Part shown: positions 6,412 to 53,994 of the stretch, in pieces
Numbering within the stretch: position 1 is the first letter of the stretch
Layout: each line of letters opens with the position of its first letter
From: Fimbriimonadaceae bacterium
GTDB lineage: Bacteria; Armatimonadota; Fimbriimonadia; Fimbriimonadales; Fimbriimonadaceae
DNA length: 64,000 bases
Direction of reading: 5' to 3'
Assembly: GCA_019187105.1 (NCBI GenBank)
Contig: JABAQM010000001.1
Location: forward strand, 2,076,734 to 2,140,733
The notes under the pieces: generated by a model
The model's database searches: none
The model's input: only the letters and a program-made list of their open reading frames with translations
What the model was told of the DNA's origin: nothing
Program-made: the position numbers and the translations under genes

Positions 6412-6472
6412 AAGGTGGATTGTGGCTCGGCTCTCCAGCCCTGAGACCCCTCTAGGCCGTAGAATTCTCACC

Positions 6473-7489
6473 ATGCGTGCATGGAAGGTTGTCGTCCTCG
6501 CCGGGCTGGTCGTCCTCGGCGGTTGCTCGGGTGGGGATCAGAGCGCCACCGATCCAACGGTGAAAGCGCCGGATGCGACGACAGACAAGTCGATCAAGTT
6601 CAAGGTCGCGCTGTTGACGCCTGGTCCAATTAGCGACGCCGGTTGGAGCGCAATGGCATACGAGGGGCTCAAGCAGATTGAGAAAGAGCTCGATGCCGAG
6701 GTCAACAACCAGGAGGCGAAAGACGCCCAAATTCGCGATGCCATGCGGGCTTACGCCCAGCAAGGCTACAAGCTCGTCTTCGGGCATGGTTTCGAATACA
6801 ACGCTCCTGCGATCGAAGTTGCCAAGCAATTCCCAGGCACGATCTTCGTGAGCAGCTCGGGCGGGGAGACAGCGGACAACGTTGGAGCGTTCCGCTTCTA
6901 TCTGGAGCAGGGCTTCTACCTGGCCGGGGCGATGGCGGCAAAGCTTTCGAAGACGGGCACGCTCGCAATGATCGGCGGCCCTGACGTGCCATCCATCCGC
7001 TCGACGTTCAAGGCGTTCAAAGCCGGCGCCGAGGTAGCGAAGCCGGGGGTCAAGGTCATCGAGACGTTCACCGGGAAGAACGAGGATATCGCGGCGGCCA
7101 AGCGAGCGACGCTGGCGGCCATAGCCGAGGGCGCCGATATGGTGATCCACCAAGCCAACGCTGCGGCCCAAGGGGTCTTCGACGCCTGCAAGGAACAGGG
7201 AGTGACCGCGTTCGGCGCCAACTTGGACCAGAACGGCAATCCGAGCGGTGTCGTCATCGCGTCGGCCGTCATCAAGGCGGGTCCTGCCTTCACCAAGCTT
7301 GCCCGCGACGTCAAGGACGGGGTCTACAAGGGATCCATCGTGCTGATGGGAATGGACCAGGGCGCCATCGATTTTGTGATCGACCCCGCGAAGGAAACCA
7401 AAATCCCGACGGACGTGCTGGAGTACGTGCTGAATTTGAAGCGCGAGATTCGCGAGGGCAAGTTCAACGTGCCGAAAGACGAGTTCTAG
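6473..7489 (+). CDS. BMP-family ABC transporter substrate-binding lipoprotein
   Basis: A 338-residue lipoprotein with lipobox LGGC (Cys18), followed by a Ser/Asp/Thr-rich linker. The mature part matches the Bmp/Med/PnrA family: FKVALLTPGPISDAGWS at the start, then GYKLVFGHGFEY, LAGAMAAKLSKTG and the hinge segment GADMVIHQANAAAQGV. Family members bind purine nucleosides (PnrA) or related ligands for ABC import. It is the first gene of an operon with an ATPase and permease. A TAGAAT hexamer (6460-6465) lies 7 nt before the ATG with no Shine-Dalgarno, so the mRNA is probably leaderless. Ligand identity is inferred only from family. Confidence 0.93.
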   Translation: MRAWKVVVLAGLVVLGGCSGGDQSATDPTVKAPDATTDKSIKFKVALLTPGPISDAGWSAMAYEGLKQIEKELDAEVNNQEAKDAQIRDAMRAYAQQGYKLVFGHGFEYNAPAIEVAKQFPGTIFVSSSGGETADNVGAFRFYLEQGFYLAGAMAAKLSKTGTLAMIGGPDVPSIRSTFKAFKAGAEVAKPGVKVIETFTGKNEDIAAAKRATLAAIAEGADMVIHQANAAAQGVFDACKEQGVTAFGANLDQNGNPSGVVIASAVIKAGPAFTKLARDVKDGVYKGSIVLMGMDQGAIDFVIDPAKETKIPTDVLEYVLNLKREIREGKFNVPKDEF

Positions 7490-7491
7490 CT

Positions 7492-8913
7492 ATCCCGACC
7501 CTCAACATCGAATCGGTTTCAAAATCATACGGCCCGGTCCGCGCTTTGGACGGGGTATCGACGAGTTGTGCCTCTGGCGAAATTCATGCGATCGTCGGTG
7601 AAAACGGCGCCGGCAAGTCGACGCTGATGCAGATCCTCGGGGGCTTCGTTGCTCCCGATGCCGGCCGGGTTGTCCTCGACGGGGTCCCACTTCCGGTGGG
7701 AGATCCGATTGGATGTCGTGCGCGGGGGATTCGGATGGTCCATCAGCATTTCATGCTGGTGCCGAGCTTCTCGGTGCGGGAGAACCTCGTGCTGGACGGC
7801 CTGAGCACGACCGGTTCTCCGGAAGAAGGTGCGGAGGCCGCGATCGAGCTTGGCCGCAGGCTGGGTTGGGAGATCGACCCAAAGGCAAGGGTCGCAGAGC
7901 TGCCGGTCGGGGTGCAGCAGCGCGTGGAGATTCTCAAGGCGATCGTCGGGGACAGCCCGGTGACCATCTTCGACGAGCCCACGGCGGTACTGACGGCCGA
8001 CGAGGTTGCCGATCTGTTCGGTGTCCTCAGGACCTTGCGAGGCGAGGGCCGGATGATCATTTTCATCGCCCACAAGATCGACGAGATTAGGGGCATTGCC
8101 GACCGGGTCACGGTGCTCAGGCGCGGCAAGGTCACCCTCAGGGCATCGATGGCGGAAACATCCAACGAAGACCTCATTCGCGCGATGGTCGGAGACCTGC
8201 CTCCGGAGCTTGCCGTGGACCGCAAAGCTCCCGGAAGAAAGGAGCTCCTCGTGGCAAATGGCGTGGTCATCAGAGGTGATCGTGGTGAGCGGGCGGTCGA
8301 TGGCGTAACCCTGGGCGTTGCTGCCGGCGAAATCCTCGGTATCGGCGGGGTCGACGGGAACGGACAGGTGGAGCTGGCGGAAGCTCTGGTCGGCATTCGC
8401 AAGGTCGAGGCGGGAACCGTCCGGCTGGGTGGCGACCATATTGCCTACATTCCGCAGGACCGGCAGCGCGATGGCCTCGCCCTTAGCCTTTCGATTCGAG
8501 ACAACCTCCTTCTGGGGGGTTATGCACGGCCCGAATTCTATCGCGGGCCGTGGATGTCGGCGGCTCGCGTGAATCGTTGGGCAGACGACTTGATCGAACG
8601 GTTTCAGATTAAGGTGGGCCAGGCGACCGATCCCGCGTCGAGCCTTTCCGGTGGCAATCAGCAGAAGGTGGTAGTCGCGCGGGCTCTGGCATCGAACCCG
8701 CAGGTTCTGGTGGTGGTCAATCCCACCCGCGGCCTCGACGTTCAGGCTGCGGCGTATGTGCACCAGGCGATGACGGACGCGGCGGCTAACGGCGCCGGCA
8801 TCGTCCTGTTCTCGACCGACCTCGATGAGCTTGCGCTGCTCGCCAACCGGACCCTGTTCATGTCCCGCGGTCGGCTTGGCGAAGCCCGCGCTGAAAAGTT
8901 GGTAGGCGGCTGA
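7492..8913 (+). CDS. ABC transporter ATP-binding protein (two ATPase domains, BMP system)
   Basis: About 473 residues with duplicated ABC ATPase domains, as in nucleoside and simple-sugar importers (YufO/MglA type). Domain 1 has Walker A GENGAGKST and Walker B VTIFDEPTAVL; domain 2 has the signature LSGGNQQKVV and a degenerate Walker B (LVVVNPTRGLD, N in place of D/E). The conserved N terminus LNIESVSKSYGPVRALDGVS lies upstream of the first usual start (TTG 7546), and no ATG, GTG, TTG or CTG occurs in frame across this stretch. The most natural start is ATC 7492, two nt after the lipoprotein stop; another ATC is at 7507. Its last base overlaps the permease ATG (TGATG). The ATPase energises uptake of the ligand bound by the lipoprotein. 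Confidence 0.88.
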   Translation: MPTLNIESVSKSYGPVRALDGVSTSCASGEIHAIVGENGAGKSTLMQILGGFVAPDAGRVVLDGVPLPVGDPIGCRARGIRMVHQHFMLVPSFSVRENLVLDGLSTTGSPEEGAEAAIELGRRLGWEIDPKARVAELPVGVQQRVEILKAIVGDSPVTIFDEPTAVLTADEVADLFGVLRTLRGEGRMIIFIAHKIDEIRGIADRVTVLRRGKVTLRASMAETSNEDLIRAMVGDLPPELAVDRKAPGRKELLVANGVVIRGDRGERAVDGVTLGVAAGEILGIGGVDGNGQVELAEALVGIRKVEAGTVRLGGDHIAYIPQDRQRDGLALSLSIRDNLLLGGYARPEFYRGPWMSAARVNRWADDLIERFQIKVGQATDPASSLSGGNQQKVVVARALASNPQVLVVVNPTRGLDVQAAAYVHQAMTDAAANGAGIVLFSTDLDELALLANRTLFMSRGRLGEARAEKLVGG

Positions 8914-9917
8914 TGCGGATCCTGATCGCGATTGCCGGAATCGCGCTCGCGGTGGTCTTGGTTCTTGCTGCCTTTGGGCTCCCAGTCGCCGAATCGCTGC
9001 GCCTGCTTGCGGATGGAGCGTTCGGCAGCAAGGTTGCGCTCGGGAGGACCCTCACGAAGGCGACGCCGCTGGTCCTCACTGGCCTCGCGATGACCGTGGC
9101 CTGGAGGACGGCGATGTACAACATCGGCGGCGAGGGCCAGTACCTGTTGGGCGCGATTACCGGCGCGGCGTTTGCAAAGGCGATGTGGGGTGTAGCGCCG
9201 GCAGCGATGAGTCTTGCGATTCTGGTCGGCTCGGTCATCGGTGGGGCGGCGATCGGCTGGTTTGCGGGTTGGCTTTTTACGGCAAGGCGAGTCGAAATCG
9301 TCATTTCGACCATCCTGCTCAATTTTCTGGTCATCCAGTTCGTCGATTGGGCAGTTCGCGGTCCTCTGCAGGAGCGTAAGGGACAGTTGCCGCTGACCGA
9401 TGCCTTGCCAAACGAGGCGATGCTGCTGCGTTTGATCCCCGGCACCGATCTCCATTCAGGTGTTTTCCTTTCCTTGGTTGCCGTAATCGTGGTGTGGGTG
9501 CTGCTTTATCGCACCCGGCTCGGCTTCGGATGGAGAGTGGTAGGCGCAAACGATGCGGCGGCTCGAGCGAGCGGCTTGGATCGGAACCGGCTGCGACTAT
9601 CGGCGATGGCGGTATCGGGCGCGCTGTGCGGACTCGCCGGCGGAATCGACTACAGTGGCGTCACTGGCCAGATCGGGGCCGGATTCTCGCAGCAGTGGGG
9701 ATTCATCGGGATTCCCGTCGCGTTGCTCGGCGGGCTGCATCCGGTTGGTGTCTTGGCGGCGGGGCTCTTCTTCGGAGCACTCTTCGCGGGGTCGGAAAAC
9801 CTGGCGCGTTTCAACACATCGGGGACGACGATCGTGTACGTGATCCAGGCGGTGGCTGTGCTGGGGCTACTTGTTGCTAACAATTTGAATCGGGGGAACG
9901 CGAGGAAGTCAACCTAG
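8913..9917 (+). CDS. BMP-type ABC transporter permease 1
   Basis: A 334-residue integral membrane permease of the BPD_transp_2 family (nucleoside/simple-sugar type, YufP-like) with about eight to nine hydrophobic segments. Typical landmarks are YNIGGEGQYLLGA in the first third, LLYRTRLGFGWRVVGANDAAARASG in the cytoplasmic coupling region, and GFIGIPVALLGGLHP. The ATG overlaps the ATPase TGA by one base, giving tight coupling. It would form a heterodimeric channel with the second permease at 11866, which is displaced about 2 kb downstream by inserted genes. Confidence 0.92.
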   Translation: MRILIAIAGIALAVVLVLAAFGLPVAESLRLLADGAFGSKVALGRTLTKATPLVLTGLAMTVAWRTAMYNIGGEGQYLLGAITGAAFAKAMWGVAPAAMSLAILVGSVIGGAAIGWFAGWLFTARRVEIVISTILLNFLVIQFVDWAVRGPLQERKGQLPLTDALPNEAMLLRLIPGTDLHSGVFLSLVAVIVVWVLLYRTRLGFGWRVVGANDAAARASGLDRNRLRLSAMAVSGALCGLAGGIDYSGVTGQIGAGFSQQWGFIGIPVALLGGLHPVGVLAAGLFFGALFAGSENLARFNTSGTTIVYVIQAVAVLGLLVANNLNRGNARKST

Positions 9918-9937
9918 GCAAAACGTGCGGAGGATTC

Positions 9938-10930
9938 GTGCGTCCCACTGTCATGCTGGCCTTTCTTGCAATTCTGGCGATCGGATCATTGCGATATGAA
10001 GCGACGCTGATCTACTCTGAAGAATCGTTCTCCGGCACGATCCACTGCGCCGTTCTAACCGACGCCGGACTCGCTGCCGGATACACCTCCGACCTTATGA
10101 CTCACCACGGACACGTTTTAAGTGCCAAGCCGTTTGTTTGGATCCAGGATAAGCTCTATCGCCTGCCGCTGGGAAAGAAAGGTCGCGAAGGCATCGTCCT
10201 TGACGGGAACGACCGTATGCTTGTTGGCGCAGTGGATGTCAAAGGGGCTGGCTACGTTCCGGCTCAGTGGATTCCGGGGGAAAGCGGGAGCTGGTCTTCA
10301 GCAAGGTTACGCGTTTATACCGGCCAAGCAGGGTTTGGATCGCACCTCGGCCCCGATGGTTCAATTTGGGTGACCAGCAATTACGTCGTCAAGGGGAGGC
10401 TCATCGGTGAAAATTGGGAGCAGAGCCAATTTGGCAATTTCGAACTCGTCGGCGTGGCCGCCGATGGCCGCCTGTTCGGAAATCGATTTCGAAATCGGCA
10501 GTTTGACGGTCGCCCGGATAACACGACTCCCGGATTCTACAGGGGGGCGAAGTGGAGCGTGCTAAAAGTCGGAGAACCAACTGGAGATCGATACTATGCC
10601 CGAGCCAAGGCTGTTAACTCGAAGGGAACCGTCATCGGCTACGTAGACTTCGCTAATGTCCTATGGGCAGGTAACACCTTGCAAGCCTTTCGAAAGGCTA
10701 CGCTGTGGGCTCTCAATGACGAGGGTGACATGGTAGGAACCGTCGAGGGCAGCAAGGACGATGTCCTAATTAAGCTGTGGAAGAAGGGCAAGGAGCACAC
10801 CGTGAGCGTCTCCTTGCCGAAAGAGAGTCTGGTGTATATCGAAAGATTGAACAACGGCGGCGTCATCGCCGCGCATGTCGCAAGAGGGATGTGGAGAGGT
10901 CTGTATTTACTCCGACCAAAGAAGCGATAG
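9938..10930 (+). CDS. exported hypothetical protein
   Basis: A 330-residue protein with an N-terminal hydrophobic segment (residues 4-17) acting as signal or anchor. The rest has repeated short strands of the form 'NDxGxxVG' (DGNDRMLVGAVD, VNSKGTVIGYVD, LNDEGDMVGTVE, LNNGGVIAAHV), reminiscent of HAF-type or propeller repeats in exported proteins. The start is GTG 9938 with a good Shine-Dalgarno GGAGG seven nt before it. It sits in the middle of a transporter operon, between permease 1 and permease 2, and has noticeably more AT-rich codons than its neighbours, which suggests later insertion. Function unknown. Confidence 0.75.
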   Translation: MRPTVMLAFLAILAIGSLRYEATLIYSEESFSGTIHCAVLTDAGLAAGYTSDLMTHHGHVLSAKPFVWIQDKLYRLPLGKKGREGIVLDGNDRMLVGAVDVKGAGYVPAQWIPGESGSWSSARLRVYTGQAGFGSHLGPDGSIWVTSNYVVKGRLIGENWEQSQFGNFELVGVAADGRLFGNRFRNRQFDGRPDNTTPGFYRGAKWSVLKVGEPTGDRYYARAKAVNSKGTVIGYVDFANVLWAGNTLQAFRKATLWALNDEGDMVGTVEGSKDDVLIKLWKKGKEHTVSVSLPKESLVYIERLNNGGVIAAHVARGMWRGLYLLRPKKR

Positions 10931-10959
10931 CCATGCCATTTAGGACCCACAGGACTGTT

Positions 10960-10991
10960 GGTCTTATAGGTTTTATTCGTCCTATAGGACC
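10960..10991. repeat. TATAGG hairpin repeat, copy 1
   Basis: GGTCTTATAGG (10960-10970) and CCTATAGGACC (10981-10991) form an 11-bp stem (one G-T wobble) around a 10-nt loop. A second copy of the same GGTC(C/T)TATAGG design is at 28550-28580. Both lie between the 3' ends of convergent genes. Confidence 0.7.
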
Positions 10992-11000
10992 TAAACCAAA

Positions 11001-11025
11001 GAGCAGGACCGAATCGGTCCTGCTC
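11001..11025. terminator. bidirectional stem-loop terminator
   Basis: A perfect 11-bp stem GAGCAGGACCG / CGGTCCTGCTC (11001-11011 and 11015-11025) with a 3-nt AAT loop. It sits between the convergent genes ending at 10930 (+) and 11052 (-). No long T tract is present, so Rho-independent strength is uncertain. Confidence 0.7.
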
Positions 11026-11051
11026 CCTAGAGCCTTTGCCGAGGAAAGGCC

Positions 11052-11714
11052 CTACTTGCGTCGCTTGCGAGCGATGGCGGCGAGGCCAAGGCCGAGCGCG
11101 GCGATCGAGGCAGGCTCCGGAACCACGTCGCCTTCGAACGTCACGAGGTCGTAGCGAATGGTGCCGCTGGTGCCATAGCTGCTGCCGTCCTGAGTTGCCC
11201 GATAAGCGCCGGTGCCGGGTTCGAACACCGCGAGCAGGCGAATCGCGAAGTTTGAGTTGTTGTTGACCGAGGTATTGCCCGACATGTCCTTGTTGAAGAC
11301 CTGCCAGAACGTGCCGCCGGCGGTGAGCTCGAACGTGTCGCCCTGGTTCCAGGTCGAGCCGTCGGTGGTGTAGTCCATGCGCAGGAAGCGCGAAGCGGTG
11401 TTGCTGTTGCGCTGATCCCACTTGATCTTGATGTTCTGGTAACCAAGCGTCGAAACCTTGTACTCCACGCCGGCGGTTCCGCTGTTCGTACCCTGGGCCG
11501 GGTAGGTCGTGGTGTTCCAGGCGCGGTTCGGCGAGCCGAGATCGTTCGGGCTTCCCGTGGCGAAGGTACTGGTGGTGCCGCCGACGAGGCTGGCAGTTCC
11601 GGTCCCGATCTGCGGGACGAGGGTGTCGTCGTTGAAGTTCCAGTGCGTAATGACGAGTGCGTTAGCCGCTCCGGCAATCGAAGCAGCCGCCAGGATTAAA
11701 AGCGTTTTGTTCAT
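11052..11714 (-). CDS. PEP-CTERM sorting-domain protein
   Basis: A 220-residue secreted protein. Signal peptide MNKTLLILAAASIAGAANA. The mature part is Thr/Asn/Gly-rich, beta-predicted, and resembles choice-of-anchor style exoproteins (ITHWNFNDDTLVPQIGTG, YPAQGTNSGTAG). The C terminus is a textbook PEP-CTERM signal: VPEPAS, a hydrophobic helix and a basic tail RKRRK. Proteins of this class are processed by an exosortase and linked to exopolysaccharide or the outer surface; no exosortase is in this window. The start at 11714 has Shine-Dalgarno GGGAGGAG; a longer frame from 11750 lacks support. The gene opposes the transporter operon in which it sits. Confidence 0.9.
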   Translation of the reverse strand: MNKTLLILAAASIAGAANALVITHWNFNDDTLVPQIGTGTASLVGGTTSTFATGSPNDLGSPNRAWNTTTYPAQGTNSGTAGVEYKVSTLGYQNIKIKWDQRNSNTASRFLRMDYTTDGSTWNQGDTFELTAGGTFWQVFNKDMSGNTSVNNNSNFAIRLLAVFEPGTGAYRATQDGSSYGTSGTIRYDLVTFEGDVVPEPASIAALGLGLAAIARKRRK

Positions 11715-11865
11715 ATTTGGTTCTCCTCCCAGACAAATAACCCGGCCCATCCGTGTGGGGCCGAAGCTGGAGGAAGACTACTCGATTTTTGTAAAGAGGG
11801 CGTTAACAGTTCTATTGTCGTGAAAGTGTTGCCACACGCCCACGCGGATACACTCCTGGAAGTCC

Positions 11866-12732
11866 GTGTTTGATCTTGCCCCGCTTCTCATCTTTGCCAC
11901 CCCGGTCGCGCTGGCCGCAATCGGCGAGGCGGTCAGCCAGCGGTCAGGTGTGATCAACGTGGGTATCGAAGGCTCGATGCTCGGTGGAGCCTATTTCGGC
12001 ATGCTGACGAGCTCGATAACCGGCAACGCCTATTTCGGGCTCCTGGCCGGGCTCGGCTACGGTATTGCCGCCGCCCTGATTCTGTCGCTATTCAGCGTCA
12101 TTCGCCAAGCTGACCAAGTGGTGGTTGGCACGGCGCTCAACTTGCTGGCGCTGGGCTTGACGGGCACCATGTTCCGCGCTCGATTCGGCTCGGGCGGGCA
12201 GCTCTTGAGCGTTCCTCAAGTTCCCCGAATCGTATTCGGGATCGATCTTGTCGTGGTCACGATGGTCGTCGCCGCAGCCGGAGCTTATTGGCTCCTCCAG
12301 CGAACGCATTGGGGCCTTGCCTTGCGATCGGCCGGCGAGTACCCGTCTGCGACCGAGGCCGCCGGGCAGTCGGTCAGGCGCATACGGATGGCGGCGGTGC
12401 TGATCGGTGGAGCCCTGGCCGGTTTGGGTGGCGCCTATCTGTCGCTCGGCATAGCGGGCTCGTTTGCCGAAAACATGACGGCTGGGCGCGGTTTTGTCGC
12501 GCTGGCGATGGTCACGTTTGGACGCTGGAACCCAATCCTCGCTGTCGGCGCCTCGCTGCTGATTGGCTACGCTGAGTCACTTCAATTCACCTTCCAAACA
12601 CGCGGCACTGGATTGCCGTATCAACTGTTTATAGCGATGCCCTACGCGCTGGCCCTCTTGGTCCTGATGGTCTTCGGACGCGGAACCCGCGCTCCTGCCG
12701 CCTTGGCCCAACCGTTCGAGAGGAGCGCTTGA
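11866..12732 (+). CDS. BMP-type ABC transporter permease 2
   Basis: A 288-residue permease of the BPD_transp_2 family (YufQ-like), with EAVSQRSGVINVGIEGSMLGGAYFG near the N terminus and FGRWNPILAVGASLLIGYAESLQF near the C terminus, both characteristic of the second permease of BMP systems. About eight transmembrane segments. The start is GTG 11866; a TACACT hexamer (11849-11854) lies 11 nt upstream, so it appears to have its own promoter although the partner genes are 2 kb upstream. The stop overlaps the next gene start as TTGA. Confidence 0.9.
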   Translation: MFDLAPLLIFATPVALAAIGEAVSQRSGVINVGIEGSMLGGAYFGMLTSSITGNAYFGLLAGLGYGIAAALILSLFSVIRQADQVVVGTALNLLALGLTGTMFRARFGSGGQLLSVPQVPRIVFGIDLVVVTMVVAAAGAYWLLQRTHWGLALRSAGEYPSATEAAGQSVRRIRMAAVLIGGALAGLGGAYLSLGIAGSFAENMTAGRGFVALAMVTFGRWNPILAVGASLLIGYAESLQFTFQTRGTGLPYQLFIAMPYALALLVLMVFGRGTRAPAALAQPFERSA

Positions 12733-13550
12733 GGACCGTCTCACTTACGCGACGGGTCGCCTTCAGCAGCGGTCACCGATACTGGGTCGATGCGTGGACC
12801 GACGACGAGAACCGCGCTGCCTTTGGAGAGTGGGCGAGCCACATGATGCACGGGCACAACTATGCGCTTGACGTTACGGTCGAGGGGCCGGTCGACCCGG
12901 CCAACGGCATGGTGATCAACATCAAGGTGATCGATGCCTTTCTTCAGGAACGCGTCGTCAGGATCTTTGCCCAGCGATCGATCAACGACGAGGTGCCCGG
13001 CTTTGATCGCCTCGCCCCGAGCGGCGAGAATATCCTCACTTTCATTCGGGAGCAGCTTAACGATCTCCCCTTACCGGTTACCCACCTGCGGCTTGAGGAA
13101 ACCTCCGATCTTGCCGTTGAATGGGATGCCTCCCAACCCAATCTCATGATGCTAACCCGAACCTACGAATTCGCCGCCAGCCACCGGCTGCACGAGCCCT
13201 CGCTTACCGAGGCTGAGAACCTTGAACTCTTCGGCAAGTGCAACAACCCGAGCGGGCATGGCCACAACTACCTGGTTGAGGTCGCCGTGATCGGTGAGCC
13301 CAAGCCGCCCACGAGCATGGTCGCCCGGATCGAAGAGCTCGACGCAGTCGTTGAGCGTGAGATCATCGACCGGTATGACCATAAGAACCTCAACTGCGAC
13401 GTGCCGGAGCTCGTTGGAAAGAACCCCACATCAGAAGTCGTTGCGCTAGCCATCTTCGAGCGACTGGAACCGCTCGTACCGGCAAAACTGGGAAAGGTCG
13501 TGCTTCACGAAACCGCACGGAACCGGTTCGAGGTCCGGGCCAAAAGTTAA
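12729..13550 (+). CDS. tandem 6-pyruvoyl-tetrahydropterin synthase (QueD/PTPS) fusion
   Basis: A 273-residue protein made of two PTPS/QueD domains. Family members convert dihydroneopterin triphosphate to pyruvoyl-tetrahydropterin or carboxy-tetrahydropterin (queuosine route). Domain 2 (~140-273) has the full PTPS active site: ASHRL zinc His, Cys in GKCNNPSGHGHNY, Asp-His in YDHKNLN, and Glu in LHETARNRFE. Domain 1 (~1-135) keeps zinc ligands (His16, His41, His43 in HGHNY) and the anchoring Glu (LRLEETSD) but has no Cys before HGH and no Asp-His (QRSINDEV). The start is TTG 12729, overlapping the permease stop (TTGA) with AGGAG at 12721-12725. FolE2, the enzyme of the preceding step, is encoded at 53182. 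Confidence 0.9.
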   Translation: MRTVSLTRRVAFSSGHRYWVDAWTDDENRAAFGEWASHMMHGHNYALDVTVEGPVDPANGMVINIKVIDAFLQERVVRIFAQRSINDEVPGFDRLAPSGENILTFIREQLNDLPLPVTHLRLEETSDLAVEWDASQPNLMMLTRTYEFAASHRLHEPSLTEAENLELFGKCNNPSGHGHNYLVEVAVIGEPKPPTSMVARIEELDAVVEREIIDRYDHKNLNCDVPELVGKNPTSEVVALAIFERLEPLVPAKLGKVVLHETARNRFEVRAKS

Positions 13551-53118: not shown

Positions 53119-53181
53119 CGCCAAAGCGTCTATCATATCGGGCAAACGTCCGCGAAAGCTGGAACGTAGGAAGCGATGCGT

Positions 53182-53994
53182 ATGAAATCCGAGTCTGATA
53201 GTCGCACCAGTGCGTTGGTCGACATCCAGAGCACGATCGATCAGCGGAATATTCCGATCGACAAGGTCGGCGTGCGGAACATCAAGTATCCGATCGTCGT
53301 TCTCGACCGAGCCAACGAGCGGCAGCACACGATTGGTACTTTCGAGCTTACGGTTGATCTTCCCCACCACTTCAAGGGAACTCACATGAGTCGGTTCCTC
53401 GAGGCGCTGAACGAGCATAAGCACGAAGTGACGATCCAGAGCGTTCCGAAGCTTCTGGAGAGTCTGCGGGATCGCCTTCATGCGAAATCCGCCCACATGG
53501 TGGTCGAGTTTCCGTTCTTCATGGTCAAGAAGGCCCCGGTCACCGGACGATCCGGAATGATGGAGTTCATGTGCGGGTTTTCCGCCGAGCTGAACGGTGA
53601 CCTCGATGTCGAGATGATCGTCAAGGTTCCGGTCACCACGCTGTGCCCCTGCAGCAAGGAAATCAGCGAATATGGGGCGCACAACCAGCGCGGTCTGGTA
53701 ACGGCACGGGTGAAGGCAAACGAGCACATCTGGTTGGAAGAGCTCATCGAGATGATCGAGTCTTCGGCTTCGTGTGCGCTCTATCCGGTGTTGAAGCGGC
53801 CTGATGAGAAGTTCGTCACCGAGCACGCCTACCAGAACCCGCGGTTCGTCGAGGACATGGTTCGGGAAGTGGCAGTCAAGTTCGACGCTGATATGCGAAT
53901 CGACTCATACGAGATCGAGGTGGAGAACTTCGAGTCGATCCACGCCCACAATGCCTATGCCTATCTGAAGCGAGATCGGGCGAAGCTGGCCTAG
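53182..53994 (+). CDS. folE2: GTP cyclohydrolase FolE2 (type IB)
   Basis: A 270-residue GTP cyclohydrolase IB, the metal-flexible alternative to FolE, converting GTP to dihydroneopterin triphosphate for folate and queuosine/pterin synthesis. Landmarks: VGVRNIKYPIVV, the catalytic/metal Cys in TTLCPCSKEISEYGAHNQRG, and HAHNAYAYLKR at the C terminus. ATG 53182 is preferred over ATG 53176 because AGGAAG lies 8 nt upstream of it. Its product feeds the tandem PTPS at 12729. FolE2 often replaces FolE under zinc limitation; no Zur-like site was recognised here. Confidence 0.96.
   Translation: MKSESDSRTSALVDIQSTIDQRNIPIDKVGVRNIKYPIVVLDRANERQHTIGTFELTVDLPHHFKGTHMSRFLEALNEHKHEVTIQSVPKLLESLRDRLHAKSAHMVVEFPFFMVKKAPVTGRSGMMEFMCGFSAELNGDLDVEMIVKVPVTTLCPCSKEISEYGAHNQRGLVTARVKANEHIWLEELIEMIESSASCALYPVLKRPDEKFVTEHAYQNPRFVEDMVREVAVKFDADMRIDSYEIEVENFESIHAHNAYAYLKRDRAKLA

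Follow-up and report, generated by a model that had tools for sequence, protein, structure and literature searches.

6-Pyruvoyl-tetrahydropterin synthase (PTPS) is a textbook example of an enzyme with an intersubunit active site. One gene in the 64,000-nucleotide stretch of DNA analysed here (the window) encodes two PTPS domains in a single chain, of which the N-terminal domain (D1) appeared to lack the catalytic residues that the C-terminal domain (D2) retains. This raises the question of what such a protein makes and in what role D1 is kept.

The encoded protein gave two matches to the Pfam PTPS family (PF01242), with an E-value of 4e-49 for the whole protein and of 8.7e-29 and 1.5e-18 for the individual domains. 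These values place both matches far above chance, and D1 and D2 each belong to the family by a significant profile match of their own. The coding sequence starts with a TTG codon, which overlaps the stop codon of the permease gene located upstream. In the AlphaFold2 model D1 showed the strands and helices of a T-fold. The positions of the two domains, of their key residues and of the neighbouring genes are listed in Table 1.

Table 1. Features of the tandem PTPS locus (positions in the window; fractions refer to the Armatimonadota tandems).
Feature	Position	Strand	Remarks
Bmp/PnrA-like substrate-binding lipoprotein	6455-7489	+	PF02608, 3.7e-45
ABC ATPase, importer operon	7546-8913	+	PF00005
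Permease 1, importer operon	8913-9917	+	PF02653
Permease 2, directly upstream of PTPS gene	11866-12732	+	PF02653
Tandem PTPS gene	12729-13550	+	273 aa; last in Bmp/PnrA-type ABC importer operon
D1, pseudo-active PTPS T-fold	12738-13127	+	approx. residues 4-133; PF01242 and TIGR00039; AlphaFold2 pLDDT ~95
D1 zinc His H16	12774-12776	+	37/37
D1 W35 at catalytic-Cys position	12831-12833	+	Trp 32/37, Cys 0/37
D1 H41-G42-H43, zinc ligands	12849-12857	+	37/37
D1 A81-Q82 at catalytic Asp-His position	12969-12974	+	His 0/37
D1 E100, equivalent of the Glu in the rat PTPS Thr-Thr-Glu segment	13026-13028	+	37/37
D1 E124, pterin-anchoring Glu	13098-13100	+	37/37
D2, catalytic PTPS T-fold	13146-13538	+	approx. 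residues 140-270; best PDB match human/rat PTPS
D2 catalytic Cys C171, CNNPSGHGH motif	13239-13241	+	37/37
D2 catalytic Asp-His D217-H218	13377-13382	+	37/37
D2 pterin-anchoring Glu E261	13509-13511	+	37/37
FolE2 (GTP cyclohydrolase IB)	53176-53994	+	PF02649, 1e-96

The full canonical set of residues (H152, C171, H177, H179, D217-H218, E236 and E261) is present in D2, in agreement with the original prediction of two fused PTPS/QueD folds, the second carrying the Cys, the Asp-His pair and the Glu. The Cys, the Asp-His pair, the Glu and the three zinc His residues, together with the CxxxxxHGH spacing that defines PTPS-II, were thus found in one domain, and in D2 only. As had been proposed, D1 retains its three zinc His residues and the anchoring Glu and has lost the catalytic Cys and the Asp-His pair; Trp and Ala-Gln occupy their positions. 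A Cys relocated to another position in D1, which would have contradicted this picture, was ruled out because the D1 sequence contains no cysteine at all. D1 also keeps the equivalent of the Glu in the Thr-Thr-Glu segment, described for rat PTPS as the pterin acceptor in PMC7546909. A Glu replacing the catalytic Cys, as in PTPS-III, was found in neither domain (Trp in D1, Cys in D2), and the residues are not divided between the two domains as in a split-site T-fold protein, all of them being held by D2. Within its group the window protein is somewhat atypical: it has Ala-Gln in D1 where DQ or DG is common, and its HGH motif is preceded by SHMM where others have SPYN.

Conservation was analyzed in a residue table of 178 domains, the Armatimonadota part of which comprised 37 distinct tandems. 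In D1, each of the three zinc His residues and the Glu residues were found in 37/37 sequences and the catalytic Cys and His in none; the canonical catalytic set of D2 was complete in every tandem. The pattern predicted from one protein held in all of these Armatimonadota tandems. The tandem was found in nearly all of the 40 relatives searched, from the same family and order, and tandem relatives also occur in Bacilli, Chloroflexota, Actinomycetota, Planctomycetota and other groups; no full-length tandem PTPS was found in plasmid records. The pseudo-active D1 is a family trait, old and widespread in several bacterial phyla. In Bacilli, D1 has kept the Cys in 7/8 sequences, the catalytic His is replaced by Gly in 8/8, and the three zinc His and two Glu residues are nearly invariant. 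The Planctomycetota D1 has lost the zinc motif as well.

Mean pairwise identity was 51.5% for D1 and 59.0% for D2. The pocket residues of D1 are invariant and the domain has motifs of its own; dN/dS, calculated from unsaturated pairs, was approximately 0.2-0.3 in both domains. D1 evolves under purifying selection. A frameshifted or decaying pseudogene was ruled out as the origin of D1, since the domain is kept across 37 genomes under such selection. The same observations, with the invariance of the zinc and anchor residues, support the proposal that D1 has been kept as a partner without catalytic function.

Among known systems, the closest to D2 is PTPS-II: human/rat PTPS (3I2B, 1GTQ) was its best PDB match by sequence (approximately 43-46% identity) and by fold (TMt 0.92), the Cys, Asp-His, Glu and zinc residues are the same, and relatives of the tandem have a gene context of tetrahydrobiopterin (BH4) synthesis. 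PTPS-II differs in having one domain per chain and forming a homohexamer, a dimer of trimers, whereas the window protein consists of two fused domains, one of them non-catalytic. With QueD (PTPS-I; E. coli 4NTK) the window protein shares the superfamily and the residues, and it likely fills the QueD step as well; QueD is a single-domain protein with a short Cys-to-HGH spacing, encoded in queuosine operons, and the window protein differs in these respects. D1 resembles PTPS-III (Plasmodium type) in being a PTPS fold without the catalytic Cys, although the residue at that position is Glu in PTPS-III and Trp in D1. Uricase (urate oxidase) also has two T-folds per chain and gave a weak two-domain Foldseek match (TMq 0.42-0.44); it has no metal cofactor, a different chemistry and four T-folds per ring. 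Bimodular QueF of V. cholerae and E. coli is, like the window protein, a tandem of T-folds in which the N-terminal module has no catalytic Cys (PMC5372742). It catalyses another reaction, and its site is split between the modules, whereas D2 of the window protein keeps all elements.

A closer parallel to bimodular QueF than the window tandem was found in Verrucomicrobiota, in a protein composed of three fused PTPS domains. The Cys and all three zinc His residues were present in the third domain only and the Asp-His pair in the first and second only; of the zinc His residues, the second domain has two and the first none. This division was seen in 17/17 distinct sequences, which, being mutually related, represent few evolutionary events, perhaps one. 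The same division of residues was observed in one pair of separate, adjacent genes from Bryobacterales (L074, n=1), where PTPS1 has the Asp-His pair without the Cys and PTPS2 has the Cys with Glu-Ser replacing Asp-His.

The tandem PTPS gene comes after an ABC importer of the Bmp/PnrA type (purine-nucleoside-like) in most family members; in the window the importer and its neighbours span 6455-12732. The order permease 2 to tandem PTPS is the same in most members. The two permease genes are adjacent in most relatives; in the window they are separated (9938-11750) by a hypothetical gene and a PEP-CTERM-type gene on the reverse strand. FolE of type I is absent from this genome, and the substrate, dihydroneopterin triphosphate, is likely supplied by FolE2. 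No gene for a sepiapterin-reductase-like short-chain dehydrogenase (SDR) was located in the neighbourhood of the window's PTPS gene.

Links to BH4 synthesis were found in the relatives. The gene orders FolE-tandem-SDR in Bacillus (L043) and tandem-SDR-phenylalanine hydroxylase (PAH) in Chloroflexota (L045), and the FolE genes adjoining the PTPS gene pairs of L074 and of Calditrichia (L080), were confirmed by Pfam. In an Armatimonadota outgroup (L032) the tandem is flanked by PAH on one side and FolE on the other, and in L042 it lies between a Bmp/ABC importer and an SDR gene. A Verrucomicrobiota cluster (L079) has the order HPPD-HmgA-FolE-triple PTPS-SDR, and a biopterin hydroxylase of approximately 600 aa was encoded in all six triple-PTPS genomes tested. 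The Verrucomicrobiota hydroxylase (L079, L084, L076 and L062) is about twice the usual bacterial length.

PAH was detected in 88 of the 111 genomes of the phylum with at least two PTPS matches, versus 3/94 with one or none, and outside the order in 7/27 versus 2/90 (p = 0.0005); these co-occurrences are confounded by shared ancestry, and the number of PTPS matches is a proxy for the tandem. The window genome encodes PAH at C1:2970287, and no pterin genes were recognised by eye beside it (L118). PAH was not detected in three tandem-bearing family genomes (G008, G092 and G126), nor in most tandem-bearing Bacilli. The genomic link to FolE, SDR or an aromatic amino acid hydroxylase is thus found in relatives and by co-occurrence, without adjacency in the window, and the gene context points to BH4-type pterin synthesis. 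In the Bacilli loci L043, L048 and L050, the FolE-tandem PTPS-SDR genes are followed by those of an anti-sigma-like ATPase and a hydrolase and by genes that by eye resemble a STAS/PP2C partner-switch module, and most such genomes have no PAH.

Our preferred reading, to which we assign a probability of about 0.66, is that the protein is a PTPS-II-type synthase made of two fused T-folds, with D2 as the catalytic domain and D1 as a conserved pterin-binding pseudo-subunit, feeding the cofactor of PAH and probably queuosine synthesis too. D2, with every catalytic residue in place, would perform PTPS-II chemistry, converting dihydroneopterin triphosphate to 6-pyruvoyl-tetrahydropterin, and its product would feed the tetrahydropterin cofactor of phenylalanine hydroxylase. 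D1 probably binds a pterin without turnover, because its zinc and pterin-binding Glu residues are kept, and would act as a fixed structural partner. A bacterial BH4-type pathway would thereby be assigned to this Armatimonadota group. Judged from the residues, the fold and enzyme type (PTPS-II) are known and the fused, conserved pseudo-active domain would be the new part; a search of mostly open-access literature gave no published description of a tandem or triple PTPS.

The role in queuosine synthesis could be read differently. The tandem is the sole PTPS/QueD homologue in this genome (PF01242 search; also the sole COG0720 protein), and QueC, QueE and QueF are all present, QueE having been assigned by eye from its sequence beside QueC. 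With the queuosine pathway present and no other QueD, the tandem probably fills the QueD step. Twelve further family genomes have the tandem only, and QueC, the gene tested, is kept in 11 of them, G020 being the exception; in these relatives without a separate QueD the tandem would probably also make the QueD product. From the same facts, and from a whole-protein score above the cut-off of the NCBI QueD model (TIGR03367, 89 bits), it could be argued that the protein simply serves this organism as QueD (6-carboxytetrahydropterin synthase) and takes no part in BH4-type synthesis. We regard this as quite improbable: the cut-off is reached only by the sum of the two domains (96 bits), D1 and D2 scoring 42 and 58 alone; three PTPS matches, from the tandem and a separate PTPS gene, are seen in most of the family; G020 has the tandem and PAH without QueC or a separate QueD; FolE, SDR and PAH genes accompany the tandem in other genomes; and the long CNNPxGHGH motif is like that of eukaryotic PTPS. 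Since it takes the combined score of two domains, each below the threshold, to pass the QueD model, the naming of tandem PTPS proteins as QueD is likely a systematic error.

The part ascribed to D1 also has competitors. It might be no more than an inert spacer that binds no ligand and completes the structure of the assembly. This would fit the loss of the catalytic Cys and His from all Armatimonadota D1, and also the Planctomycetota D1 without a zinc motif, from which some lineages tolerate full decay. This is unlikely in view of the zinc His and Glu residues that remain invariant in the Armatimonadota and nearly so in the Bacilli, and of a constraint on D1 similar to that on D2. Alternatively, D1 could lend residues to D2 in one shared site, for which the Verrucomicrobiota triples, the L074 gene pair and the interdomain site of bimodular QueF (PMC5372742) provide models. 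This is less probable still: the Armatimonadota D1 lacks both the Cys and the Asp-His pair that it would have to lend, D2 keeps both, and true sharing should have cost D2 one half. The reading of D1 as a pterin-binding pseudo-subunit is preferred to either.

The single-chain AlphaFold2 models had a pLDDT of 95.5 and a pTM of 0.90 for the tandem, and of 90.8 and 0.88 for the triple. In Foldseek searches no solved single chain fitted the whole tandem well, its single domains matching PTPS, and the value for the triple was approximately 0.30. The original prediction had relied on PTPS active sites being located at subunit interfaces; this is supported by the title under which PMC7546909 cites Burgisser et al. 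(1995), where the triad is intersubunit. Because both halves of the triad are present in D2, unlike in the Verrucomicrobiota D3, and neither is left in D1, D2 must, as far as its residues indicate, pair with the D2 of another chain; the triad being intersubunit, the Cys/zinc half of one D2 would meet the Asp-His half of the other. Strands at the N and C termini reportedly join neighbouring subunits of a ring, the catalytic His being supplied by the opposite trimer (Nar et al., in 1994). If so, the shortness of the linker would place D1 and D2 next to each other in a ring, and a ring of three members cannot be built up from chains of two domains. The pseudo-hexamer with half the sites, suggested in the original prediction, would meet this difficulty. 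The assembly may be a uricase-like ring of four T-folds, may leave D1 outside the catalytic ring, or may be otherwise unusual.

In contrast to L074, both adjacent PTPS genes of L080 are complete. In the domain tree the D1 domains of Armatimonadota, Bacilli and others grouped with PTPS1 of L080 at modest support values (56-82); the C-terminal domains fell elsewhere. The tree and the intact L080 pair make it plausible that an intact gene pair was the ancestral state of the fusion. In these natural variants the halves of the triad lie in one domain (D2), are lost together (D1) or are spread over separate domains or genes (the triple, L074), so that how subunits pair and how a pseudo-subunit is used become testable by ordinary expression and mutation. 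A broader proposal, which we put forward tentatively and hold to be possible rather than probable, is that the PTPS T-fold repeatedly evolved fused, fixed-stoichiometry assemblies (tandem, split pair and single-chain trimer) with a partitioned intersubunit site, and that the zinc/pterin pocket of D1 has been put to a new use, for instance as an internal sensor of the substrate or of the tetrahydropterin end-product. If so, one chain of the Verrucomicrobiota type would be a whole ring with one active site.

A further gene pair was noted in Acidobacteria (L065). In its first gene (8001-8435) the Asp-His pair is kept and the Cys is replaced by Glu (FGLESQTHGHNY), which resembles the PTPS-III substitution.
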